Notes: generated by a model from the letters alone, not told the origin. A stretch of 64,000 bases of DNA from Halorubrum lacusprofundi ATCC 49239 (GCF_000022205.1 NC_012029.1:1736001-1800000), one strand, 5' to 3'. Shown: positions 10,771 through 14,510, counted from the stretch's first letter. Program-made: numbers and translations.

Positions 10771-11250
10771 TCAGTTGCCAGCGCCGTCTTCGGGTAGGGG
10801 CGCGGTGTCCTCGGCGCCCTCACCGGCCTCGTTGGTCGTGGTGTCGCCAACGCCGTTGACCGTGATCACGGTGCAGTCGAGCTCGTCGCGAAGGTACGTG
10901 TCGATGTCGGGGTCGGAGAGGAGCTTCTGGACCATACGTCGCCAGCGTCCGGCCTGCTTCGAGCCGATGACGACCACGTCGGCGCCCTCGGCGACGATCT
11001 CCTCCAAGATGGTCTCCTCGACGAGGAACCCCCGGCGGACGACGTACCGCGCGCGGTCCAGCCGGCCGATTCGCTGTTCGACGGCGCGTTTCAGGTCGCC
11101 TCGGGAGACGCCGCCGGAGTTCTGGTACAGATCAACGTGGAGGACCGTAAGATCGGCATCCCGATCCTCGGCGACTTTCGCCGCCTCTCGCAGCGTCGCC
11201 TCGGAGTGCGACGACGGCGGGAACCGGACTGGAACCACAACGAGAGTCAT
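10771..11250 (-). CDS. Universal stress protein (UspA family)
   Basis: A 159-residue single-domain Usp protein. The N-terminal beta strand (LVVVPVRFP), the acidic middle and the nucleotide-loop region VVIGSKQAGRWRRM with CTVITV at the end follow the family plan, although the usual G-2x-G-9x-G(S/T) loop is degenerate, so ATP binding is doubtful. The start at 11250 matches the domain start. It lies 74 bases downstream of the DUF2589-like operon on the same strand and could be read with it. Confidence 0.85.
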   Translation of the reverse strand: MTLVVVPVRFPPSSHSEATLREAAKVAEDRDADLTVLHVDLYQNSGGVSRGDLKRAVEQRIGRLDRARYVVRRGFLVEETILEEIVAEGADVVVIGSKQAGRWRRMVQKLLSDPDIDTYLRDELDCTVITVNGVGDTTTNEAGEGAEDTAPLPEDGAGN

Positions 11251-11324
11251 GTCTCTACTATTGCATGCGGGGGATAAATACGCTATCGGTGCGAATAATC
11301 GAGTTGAGAATTGGGGCCTCTTCT

Positions 11325-11627
11325 TCACGCGACGGGAGCACCTGCGATCGCTGCGAACTGCTCCGGATCGAACCGGATGCCACCGACGGTGTCGACCCAC
11401 GGGAGCCGTCCCAGCCGCTGGGCGCGCCCGTGCGAAAGGCGAACAATGGCGAATCCCGACTGATGGTGGAGCACGAGCCGACCCGACGTCCCCACCAGTC
11501 CAAGCAGGCCGGTAACGAACGCGTCGTGGTCGACCGCGTCTCGCCGCTTCATGAAGAAGAACCCCTCCGTCTTGGGGTCCGGTCCGGCGACCTCGATGGA
11601 CGCGCCGAACCGCTCCGCGATGGTCAT
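11325..11627 (-). CDS. Small protein ending the DUF2589-like operon
   Basis: A protein of about 100 residues of unknown family. The sequence has a beta-rich look (GRLVLHHQSGFAIVRLSHG) with no cysteines and no membrane segment. The ATG at 11627 lies in a four-base ATGA overlap with the stop of the coiled-coil/PASTA gene, which fixes the start and argues for translation as part of the same operon. I do not recognise a domain; context suggests it works with the four upstream proteins. Confidence 0.75.
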   Translation of the reverse strand: MTIAERFGASIEVAGPDPKTEGFFFMKRRDAVDHDAFVTGLLGLVGTSGRLVLHHQSGFAIVRLSHGRAQRLGRLPWVDTVGGIRFDPEQFAAIAGAPVA

Positions 11628-12916
11628 CGGCCCGCCGCCATCTGCGTCGCCTGTTCGATCCACCTTTCGGCCCTGTTCGTCGACGCTTGCGTTATCTTGG
11701 CGACGGTGTCCGGATCGAGCGCCGCCAGTTGTGAGACGTTGCGAACGCCCTTTTCACGGAGTCGGCTCGCGTACGTCGGGCCGATTCCGGACACCGCTTC
11801 GAGCGCAATCGACTCGCCGTGGCCGCCGAGCCGTTTCTGGAGTGCGACGATCTGTTCGACCGGAAGCGACAGTTCAGCGGCGATCTTCTCGGGATCCAAT
11901 TTAATCAGAGAGTCGAGATCGGTGACGCCGGCGCGGCGGAGCCGTTCGACGACCGCCGCGCCGTTCTCGGGGTCGACGTCGACGATTGCCCGCCTGAACG
12001 CTTCCATGCGGGCTCGCTCGTCGTCGGCCTCGGGCTTCTTCGACTGGCTGGTGTCGTCGGCTTCGGGATCCTCTGACTGTCCGGTGTCGTCACTCTCGCT
12101 TCCCGCGTCGGCGTCAGATTCTGGAACCGGTTCCGCGGTCGGCTCGTTCGGCGTGTCCGGCTCGTTCGGTGTGTCCGGCTCGCTTTCCGGCGCCTCGGAA
12201 AGCACAAGATCGACCGGCGATCCGGGCTCGGTGACGGCGTAGGGCTCGGGGAACTGCTCGATGACGGTCCCCGGTGCAGTCTCCGGGTCGGTAGCGCGCT
12301 CGACCGTTCCGACAGCGAGGTTGGCCGCGGCGAGCCGGCGCGCCGCGACCTCGTGCGGCTGGCCCCGAAGATCCGGTACGTCAGTGTACGTCGGCCCGGC
12401 GTCCTCCGTCTCACCGCGCGGTGCGCGTAGCCGGAACGAGACCTCGCTGAGGTTCGCGGACACCGACGACTCGTCCAGCGACGGCAGATGCATCCGAATC
12501 CCCTCGTCGGTCTGAATCACGTTCGTCTTGAGCGTGAAGTCGACGTCGTCGACGCGGTAGCGCTCGCTCGCCAGATCGTCGTCGGCCTCTTGGAGCGCCG
12601 CACCGAGGTTCGCGAAGACCTGCTTCGGCTCCAACGCCGGCCGCTGTGCTTCCAGCTCTCCGACACGCTCTCGAAGCTCCTCGCGCTGCGCTTCCACCTT
12701 CGAGAGCTGGCGTTCGAGGGCGTTCCGCTCGCTTCGAACGTCCAGCACGTCTGTCTGCAGGCGAACGATCGACTCCTGTTGATCGGTGATCACCCGTTCG
12801 ACCGCCGCCCGCTCGACCGTCTCGAACTTGCCAACGTCGATCTGGGGGATCTCCTCTAGCTGAAACGTCTCGGCGTAGCGAGTCGTGTCGGCATCGAAGG
12901 CGTACCGATCGCTCAT
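11624..12916 (-). CDS. Coiled-coil, PASTA and helix-hairpin-helix protein
   Basis: A 430-residue multidomain protein. Residues ~45-95 form a coiled coil (QQESIVRLQTDV, then ERQLSKVEAQREELRERVGE). Residues ~115-165 carry a short beta segment (RYRVDDVDFTLKT) that resembles the core of the three neighbouring DUF2589-like proteins. Residues ~170-245 look like one PASTA domain (PDLRGQPHEVAARRL, TVIEQFPEPYAVTEPGSPV). An acidic, Pro/Glu-rich linker follows, then two helix-hairpin-helix units (SGIGPTYASRLREKGVRNV near residue 375). There is no kinase, signal peptide or membrane segment, so the PASTA domain is probably cytoplasmic, which is unusual. It overlaps both neighbours by four bases. Confidence 0.85.
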   Translation of the reverse strand: MSDRYAFDADTTRYAETFQLEEIPQIDVGKFETVERAAVERVITDQQESIVRLQTDVLDVRSERNALERQLSKVEAQREELRERVGELEAQRPALEPKQVFANLGAALQEADDDLASERYRVDDVDFTLKTNVIQTDEGIRMHLPSLDESSVSANLSEVSFRLRAPRGETEDAGPTYTDVPDLRGQPHEVAARRLAAANLAVGTVERATDPETAPGTVIEQFPEPYAVTEPGSPVDLVLSEAPESEPDTPNEPDTPNEPTAEPVPESDADAGSESDDTGQSEDPEADDTSQSKKPEADDERARMEAFRRAIVDVDPENGAAVVERLRRAGVTDLDSLIKLDPEKIAAELSLPVEQIVALQKRLGGHGESIALEAVSGIGPTYASRLREKGVRNVSQLAALDPDTVAKITQASTNRAERWIEQATQMAAGR

Positions 12917-13305
12917 GGGTTGCGAGACTCCGGTGGGACGGGAGCGATGCGGAGTCGCACTTCGCTGGCGATCTCGGCGTCTATATCGTACTCGTTCGCG
13001 GCGCGGTGATTCAGCGGGACGGCGCTCACGACCGGCTTGTAGGCACGGACCTCGTTGGTCTCCGGATCGCGGATCTCCTGCCCCTCGATCGACAGCGTCA
13101 TCTCTAGGTCCGCTTCGACGTCGGCGAACCGGAGCCACGACGCGTCGAGGTCGTACGCGAGGCTTCCGTCCTCGATATCGCGGTCGATCGCACGCTGGAC
13201 CTCCATCGAGCGGCGGTCCAGCTCCTCTTGGCCCTCGGCGACCGAGAACGCGACCGTCCGGATGAACTCCTTGAGCGGTCGCGCGAGCCACTCGTCAGTT
13301 GGCAT
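12913..13305 (-). CDS. DUF2589-like small protein, shortest paralogue
   Basis: A 130-residue protein. It keeps the layout of the two upstream paralogues: an N-terminal amphipathic helix ending in AEGQEELDRRSMEV and a beta segment LRFADVEADLEMTLSIEG corresponding to YQFSEAVIEVEMDIKT. It ends in EVRLRIAPVPP, like the family's Pro-rich C-terminus. The four-base overlap with the coiled-coil/PASTA gene places it firmly in the operon. The family match is by eye. Confidence 0.75.
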   Translation of the reverse strand: MPTDEWLARPLKEFIRTVAFSVAEGQEELDRRSMEVQRAIDRDIEDGSLAYDLDASWLRFADVEADLEMTLSIEGQEIRDPETNEVRAYKPVVSAVPLNHRAANEYDIDAEIASEVRLRIAPVPPESRNP

Positions 13306-13870
13306 GCTCGCCTCCGTCGCTGGCGGGGCTCGTCTCGCTCGCGTCTTCCGGTCCGACCGCGGCCGGCATCGGGGTCGGTTCGAGCCGCGCCGCGAGCCGA
13401 GCGTTCGCGCCGGCCTCGCGGTCGAACGTTCGCCGGTCGATCACGGACTGCGTGCCCGCTCGGAGGTCGAACGCCCGATCCGCGTGCTTGTCCTCCGGTC
13501 GGTCGTGTTCGGACTGGTCGCGTTCCGCGACACTCACATCCACCTCGACCTCGATGGTCGCGTCGCTGAATCGGTATCGGGCGGGCGTGAGCCCGAGTTC
13601 GAGCAGGGATCGGCGCTCCGTCGCCGCGGTGTCCGTCGTGACTGTCCCGTCCGACTCGATGGTACGAGTCAGCGTCGGGACGACATCGATCTCGGTCTCC
13701 GCGAGCGACGTGAGCGTCTCCGCGGCGTGCGCGTCGAGCGCGGTCTGGGCGTCAGCGACGCCCGCGGCCAGCAGGTAGACGAGGTCGTCGAACGGGACAG
13801 CCGCGACCGGTTGGGTCGGTCGAGCGGGGGCGGTACTGCGCGGTGGTAGGTGATGTGCTCGTAGTGGCAT
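13295..13870 (-). CDS. DUF2589-like protein, second paralogue
   Basis: A 191-residue protein clearly paralogous to the first gene of the operon. It shares GVADAQTALD, LAETEIDVVPTLTRTI and YRFSDATIEVEVDV with it, in the same order. The start at 13870 is chosen because the N-terminal Pro-rich stretch is followed directly by the conserved VPFDDL block; a start near the Val-Pro-Phe block is possible. The C-terminal half is charged and likely flexible. It overlaps the next gene by 11 bases. No function is known to me. Confidence 0.8.
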   Translation of the reverse strand: MPLRAHHLPPRSTAPARPTQPVAAVPFDDLVYLLAAGVADAQTALDAHAAETLTSLAETEIDVVPTLTRTIESDGTVTTDTAATERRSLLELGLTPARYRFSDATIEVEVDVSVAERDQSEHDRPEDKHADRAFDLRAGTQSVIDRRTFDREAGANARLAARLEPTPMPAAVGPEDASETSPASDGGEHAN

Positions 13871-13947
13871 GGGTCTCACTGTTGCCGCTCTCCGTCCGCC
13901 GTGTGGACGGGTGCGAAAACGCACGCGTGGAGTAGCGGCGGGGTCGA

Positions 13948-14472
13948 TCACTCCTCGTTGTCTTCGGGCTGTCGCTGGTCGATCGTCTCGACTTCGGGGA
14001 AGAGGTAGGGCGGTTCCGGAACCGGGACCATCGTGGTCTTCAGTTTGCTCGTTCCGTGGACCTCCTTGCCGAACTTCCGGTTGTGGCTCACGTCGGTCTG
14101 GATGCTCCCGCCCCACAGTCCGAATCCGGCGTGCGCCTCGGCGCTCACGTCGATGTCGGTCTCTCGTTCCGTGGTCGTCTTGATGTCCATCTCGACCTCG
14201 ATGACGGCCTCCGAGAACTGGTAGAAGGTCGGGAACAACCCGGCCTGCAGCAGCGAGACGTCGATCGGGGTCGCGGAGGAGTAGGTGACCTCGCCCTCCG
14301 AATCGATCGTCCGCGTGATCGCCGGGACGACCTCGATCTCCGTCTCGGCGAGGACCTTCGCGACCTCGACCGAGTTCATGTCCAACTGGTTCTGTGCGTC
14401 CGCGATACCCTGACCCATGCTCGCGATCATCTCAGGGAACGGTACGTCGAGTAGCTCTTGCCCTACGGACAT
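13948..14472 (-). CDS. DUF2589-like protein, first gene of the operon
   Basis: A 174-residue soluble protein. The N-terminal VPFPEMIASMGQGIADAQNQLD followed by ETEIEVVPAITRTI and FYQFSEAVIEVEMDIKT matches what I know of the DUF2589 pattern (a helical start, a mid-protein beta sandwich and a Val-Pro-rich tail, here TTMVPVPEPPYLFPE). That family is uncharacterised. The gene is preceded by an AT-rich promoter, so it leads the operon of five overlapping or closely spaced genes. The product is probably cytoplasmic. Confidence 0.82.
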   Translation of the reverse strand: MSVGQELLDVPFPEMIASMGQGIADAQNQLDMNSVEVAKVLAETEIEVVPAITRTIDSEGEVTYSSATPIDVSLLQAGLFPTFYQFSEAVIEVEMDIKTTTERETDIDVSAEAHAGFGLWGGSIQTDVSHNRKFGKEVHGTSKLKTTMVPVPEPPYLFPEVETIDQRQPEDNEE

Positions 14473-14510
14473 TCTTAATTAATTAACGTAATAGATATTA
14501 AATACGTATG
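14473..14510 (-). promoter_or_regulatory. Promoter of the DUF2589-like operon
   Basis: Read on the minus strand, a TATA-like tttaatat element lies about 25 bases ahead of the ATG at 14472, in a stretch that is far more AT-rich than the flanks (14473-14508). The spacing fits a leaderless or nearly leaderless transcript. Confidence 0.6.

Follow-up and report, generated by a model that had tools for sequence, protein, structure and literature searches.

A five-gene module of DUF2589-like paralogues and a PASTA/HhH coiled-coil protein in Halorubrum lacusprofundi recurs in archaea and bacteria and may encode a soluble protein assembly

A set of five neighbouring genes in Halorubrum lacusprofundi ATCC 49239, here called A to E, recurs across archaea and bacteria far beyond chance. 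Three of its products (A, B and C) are homologous to one another, a fourth (D) joins a coiled coil to a PASTA and an HhH domain, and the set is conserved and patchily distributed. We infer, with about even confidence, that the module encodes a soluble hetero-oligomeric assembly, in which beta-hairpin subunits of the DUF2589 type would be accompanied by D as a decorated coiled-coil arm; the complex itself, its shape and the roles given to D and E below all belong to this proposal.

The window analysed is a stretch of 64,000 nucleotides (NC_012029.1:1736001-1800000), with positions counted from its first letter. The five genes in one direction described by the initial annotation were all recovered as open reading frames on the minus strand: A at 13948-14472 (174 aa), B at 13295-13870 (191 aa), C at 12913-13305 (130 aa), D at 11624-12916 (430 aa) and E at 11325-11627 (100 aa). 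The overlaps it had listed are likewise present, 11 bases between B and C (13295-13305) and ATGA both between C and D (12913-12916) and between D and E (11624-11627); the C/D overlap, ATGAGC, is preserved in four other Halorubrum genomes. Between A and B lie 77 bases that contain a short hairpin, GTGCG-TTTT-CGCAC (13911-13924, minus strand), which from its sequence may be an attenuator. Upstream of A lies an AT-rich, promoter-like region (14473-14502, minus strand), and a TTTAATA box starting 30 bases 5' of the A start codon (ATG) suggests a leaderless transcript. All five products are soluble, hydropathy analysis giving neither transmembrane segments nor export signals for any of them, and Pfam found no match for A, B, C or E and no enzyme domain in the five-gene set. 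The same strand carries, just beyond the 3' end of E, a gene resembling universal stress proteins (10771-11251), and in four other Halorubrum loci the DNA downstream of the module encodes a protein cluster of similar size. The H. lacusprofundi literature, in those portions that carry nearby locus tags and were available, does not report these five genes.

The relationship of A, B and C rests on profile comparisons. A and B, of which B is the faster-evolving paralogue, share 40% identity (E 3e-27 in a search with A), and hhalign gave 100% for A against B, 96% for B against C, the shorter relative of both, and 94% for A against C, with 99% between archaeal and bacterial C; control profiles of PASTA, HhH and E remained below 5%. 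Against the DUF2589 profile, A reached 96% (E 2.9e-9 and 2.1e-9 over 158-162 columns) and B 49%. These links identify A, B and C as related, DUF2589-like proteins, and they occur as tandem paralogues in one operon, as DUF2589 proteins do. No match to the Pfam DUF2589 model (PF11655, gathering cut-off 23 bits) was obtained with A, B or C; since no protein alone reaches the curated model, they are distant relatives and not members by that test. The initial reading of the locus as an operon of DUF2589-like paralogues is thus upheld by its conservation and by profile-profile homology, but not by the Pfam models, among which D passes that of PASTA and no protein passes that of DUF2589. The helix and strand core that it had described as shared is strong across A, B and C, but weak in D, where it is reached through intermediates. 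In a tree of 84 A and B proteins, A forms a clade of 47 and B a clade of 37, among whose members is one broken Halobaculum sequence labelled A; support is full for each clade. A and B being two clades of one tree, their duplication is older than the archaeal and bacterial spread of the module, and both copies were kept.

The shape of these subunits can only be approached through models. A, the most conserved member, is predicted to consist of a helix (residues 12-43), short strands and a long beta-hairpin (83-114/121-151). Its AF2 model, built with 37 homologues, shows, at low confidence (mean pLDDT 62.9, below 50 in the hairpin), a helix of 32 residues and a hairpin whose strands each span about 30 residues. 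The alternation of hydrophobic and charged residues in strand 83-114 was equalled in 8 of 5000 shuffles, and that in strand 121-151 was not significant (417 of 5000). Foldseek against the PDB returned nothing significant for A (best E 0.018) and VIA-align no Z above 3.3, and no solved structure matched A by sequence. Among the weak structural hits, long-hairpin proteins that form rings come first (anthrax PA, the iota and CDTb pores, the phage P68 tail, the FliF ring), with other beta proteins mixed in; the hits are too weak for homology to pore proteins, the FliF ring or phage tail parts, which we rejected. With such a model and such scores, a ring or tube would be a guess.

Clusters with DUF2589 (PF11655) itself, for example in Archaeoglobi, other Halorubrum and Vibrio plasmids, likewise combine tandem paralogues with a short third member. 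Canonical DUF2589 operons are parallel sets of several paralogues, one of these operons having an HhH tail: in a haloarchaeal case (L053:8483-11071) two DUF2589 genes are joined by a third gene whose product bears a pair of HhH domains, in parallel to the system of the window. The two systems differ in the arm of coiled coil and PASTA, which was absent from the eight DUF2589 neighbourhoods read. Among 52 Halorubrum genomes the module is present in 11, canonical DUF2589 in nine and both in two, about the overlap expected from 11 and nine; the two occur independently, and mutual exclusion was rejected. The sole mention of DUF2589 in the portions of the literature available to us concerns AF0414-AF0417, described there as up-regulated in Archaeoglobus fulgidus growing with lactate.

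A pattern-based scan that took a single genome for each of 84,980 species placed homologues of A at 48 loci in haloarchaea, a methanogen and 12 bacterial phyla; the count is a lower bound. Archaeal loci belong to Halorubrum, Natronomonas, Halococcaceae, Salinarchaeum, Salinigranum, Halobaculum and Methanocalculus; Halorubrum species can be grown in culture. Most loci are bacterial, and the module is not confined to haloarchaea; the phyla are Gemmatimonadota, Pseudomonadota, Thermodesulfobacteriota, Cyanobacteriota, Chloroflexota, Thermomicrobiota, Kiritimatiellota, Actinomycetota, Bacillota, Acidobacteriota, Campylobacterota and Bacteroidota, and a plasmid of Sphaerotilus sulfidivorans also bears the module. 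E. coli gave no match. The co-occurrence on which the initial annotation depended is conserved in archaea and bacteria alike, all five genes standing together in 22 of the 30 loci with sufficient flank, in varying order (ABCDE, EABCD, CDEAB, AEBCD). Beyond close relatives, blast clusters of neighbouring proteins held the module genes alone, save a few small clusters in three to four loci, and no Pfam family occurred in more than two of 121 neighbouring proteins. Conserved extra partner genes were accordingly rejected, and with no other shared neighbour the module is a closed unit. A viral origin was also rejected, relatives of A being absent from viral contigs and phage records; a viral structure library gave one match to A (A0A516MP19, E 3.9e-5), and one DUF2589 relative was present in a fecal phage record that is short and carries no annotation.

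Within its lineages the module is patchy and under constraint. A is present in 7 of 146 genomes of the order and, every time together with B, in 11 of 52 of the genus. The A/B tree places, for example, Acidobacteria beside Cyanobacteria, and such cross-phylum groupings suggest horizontal transfer, although caution is due given the long branches; contamination is possible in some bins (copies from Gemmatimonadales and Gammaproteobacteria are very close), so that placements of single MAGs were not relied upon. In comparisons with four Halorubrum species all five genes are under purifying selection, with dN/dS of 0.11-0.18 for A, 0.08-0.26 for C, 0.13-0.37 for E, 0.23-0.32 for D (three intact comparisons, a fourth, with L059, being omitted because D is broken there) and 0.35-0.48 for B, the most relaxed. 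The Halorubrum persicum D (L059:3862-5164) and the Halobaculum litoreum A (L098:9612-10182) appear broken by frame changes, through sequencing error or decay.

Such a distribution also fits the main rival to an assembly, a module for biological conflict (defence or competition) in which Trypco2-like adaptors and a scaffold would serve an unlinked effector and be spread horizontally. Trypco2 is characterized in PMC7159879 and PMC10907252 as an adaptor of VMAP conflict systems, where it neighbours trypsin-like peptidases. It resembles the proteins considered here in being a short domain of a helix plus strands; one bacterial C, from an actinomycete, passes its cut-off (PF19631, 27.6 bits against 24.2) and a second matches weakly (13.5 bits); C and D of the window remain below the cut-off. 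The patchy and cross-phylum occurrence and a dN/dS of B about three times that of A point in the same direction. However, hhalign of Trypco2 against archaeal C gave 9%. Neither trypsin-like peptidases nor MoxR/vWA genes recur near the module, in contrast to VMAP systems, and no peptidase, NTPase or effector is recurrent in or beside it. PADLOC on the 121 neighbours returned scattered single matches without pattern, by which a defence island was rejected; A to E match no defence model beyond PASTA and coiled-coil, and dN/dS is below 0.5 for all five genes. We therefore consider a conflict module unlikely.

D is the most composite product. Coiled-coil models match residues 37-99 weakly (12620-12808, minus strand, as are all features of D), and a small core beta domain follows at residues 94-167 (12416-12637), which is common to bacterial D (92% between archaeal and bacterial D in hhalign). 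A direct hhalign link of this core to A or B is absent. The third protein of Archaeoglobi DUF2589 operons aligns with both bacterial D (75%) and bacterial C (82%), and bacterial C reaches 31% against archaeal D and 12% against bacterial D; through these intermediates the beta domain is probably related to A, B and C. The PASTA domain (PF03793) occupies residues 179-240 (12197-12382) with 42.6 bits against a cut-off of 23.2 (E 6e-11). In 146 haloarchaeal genomes PASTA was found solely in the seven that hold A, once in each and always inside D, and PASTA tails reappear in Bacteroidota, Kiritimatiellota and Methanocalculus, on C or on D: the Methanocalculus D has three PASTA and no HhH, that of Salinigranum PASTA without HhH, C of Pontiellaceae PASTA plus HhH, and in Cryomorphaceae both C and D bear PASTA. 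Three other bacterial D proteins scanned had neither domain. The Cryomorphaceae cluster (L105:5195-13954) encodes four proteins resembling A, of which one has an OmpA domain inserted, and its C- and D-like proteins each end in PASTA; an acidobacterial D (L089:11589-13202) has another variable tail, a long repeat-like C-terminal extension.

PASTA is normally an outside sensor of the cell wall, and PASTA, OmpA and peptidoglycan-binding domains are usually extracytoplasmic. They might point to a released or surface-located particle or complex that binds wall polymers through these tails, an explanation favoured by the recurrence of PASTA on C and D, by the OmpA insertion and by genes labelled as peptidoglycan-binding near DUF2589 pairs on two plasmids. 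Those plasmid neighbours, however, are on the opposite strand or several genes away, many D homologues lack such a tail, A to E lack export signals, and haloarchaea, to our knowledge, have no peptidoglycan. A surface complex thus seems quite improbable. D shares its PASTA domain with kinases of the PknB/PrkC type but differs from them as the initial annotation had observed, the domain standing here without kinase or signal peptide; a membrane segment is also lacking, and PASTA rides on a coiled-coil scaffold protein.

Gene E had not been discussed in the initial annotation beyond its place in the gene row. Its AF2 model (34 homologues) is confident (mean pLDDT 87.6) and, with the order beta-alpha-beta-beta-alpha-beta, is an alpha/beta-plait (ferredoxin-like), the fold of subtilisin propeptides and I9 inhibitors. 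Subtilisin propeptides were the top Foldseek matches (best E 4.4e-3), and VIA-align gave Z 8.8 to the inhibitor POIA1 (69 residues, rmsd 2.7). A conserved protein of about 90 residues follows DUF2589 on Vibrio and deltaproteobacterial plasmids (L117:5926-6201, L118:5951-6214, L119:5833-6108) and is a possible counterpart of E. The fold raises the explanation that the module controls a protease, with E as a stand-alone I9-type inhibitor or propeptide-like subtilase chaperone and A to D as its scaffold, and the sole match of the E profile among PDB sequences was indeed the propeptide of Tk-subtilisin. That match is not significant (E 0.5-1.1, best 0.49), Pfam I9 gave none, and the plait is very common, an unrelated enzyme domain (1vr6_A) scoring even higher (Z 9.2). 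E thus differs from these inhibitors in lacking both significant sequence similarity and a module-linked subtilase, and we regard protease control as very unlikely.

D ends in what had been annotated as two HhH units of a DNA-binding type. The second is a Pfam HHH_5 domain (PF14520, residues 371-423, 11648-11806) with 48.2 bits against a cut-off of 27 (E 1.5e-12), but the first (residues 320/321-361, 11834-11959) is weaker, its matches to RAD51D_N (24.1 bits) and DUF4332 (20.8 bits) remaining under cut-off. HhH was also absent from the cyanobacterial, betaproteobacterial and Gemmatimonadales D copies examined; missing from many D homologues, it is optional, and DNA binding is unlikely to be a core function. 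HHH_5 is present on D, on the Pontiellaceae C and, in two copies, on the third protein of the haloarchaeal DUF2589 operon, which might indicate a DNA-associated complex holding chromosomal or foreign DNA through the HhH tail of D. This is the least probable explanation and a very improbable one: HhH is missing from D in Methanocalculus and Salinigranum as well, and tails like HHH_5 are also borne by proteins that are not known to bind DNA (NCBIfam L21, S2, phasin). The optional and recurrent tails fit an exchangeable binding surface carried by a constant scaffold.

The absence of enzymes and export signals, four related or small beta-domain proteins, a coiled coil and a tight unit lead us, with confidence evenly divided, to a structural assembly. 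The mobile, self-contained module would encode one soluble hetero-oligomer, in which A and B, together with C, would be DUF2589-type subunits, each with an N-terminal amphipathic helix and a long amphipathic beta-hairpin. The hairpins probably pair between subunits to build the body, perhaps a ring, tube or filament. D, with its long coiled coil and a small beta domain that is probably a relative of C, would be the adaptor arm, and its optional PASTA and HhH tails would provide the binding surfaces, whereas E may be a small plait partner acting as cap, assembly chaperone or inhibitor. We tentatively suggest an undescribed class of cytoplasmic assembly in archaea and bacteria, with a body of long beta-hairpins and a coiled-coil arm carrying intracellular PASTA and HhH. 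Here PASTA is part of a soluble scaffold protein in organisms that lack peptidoglycan, and a compact, enzyme-less gene set retained from haloarchaea to cyanobacteria makes a strong candidate for a cellular structure not yet recognised.
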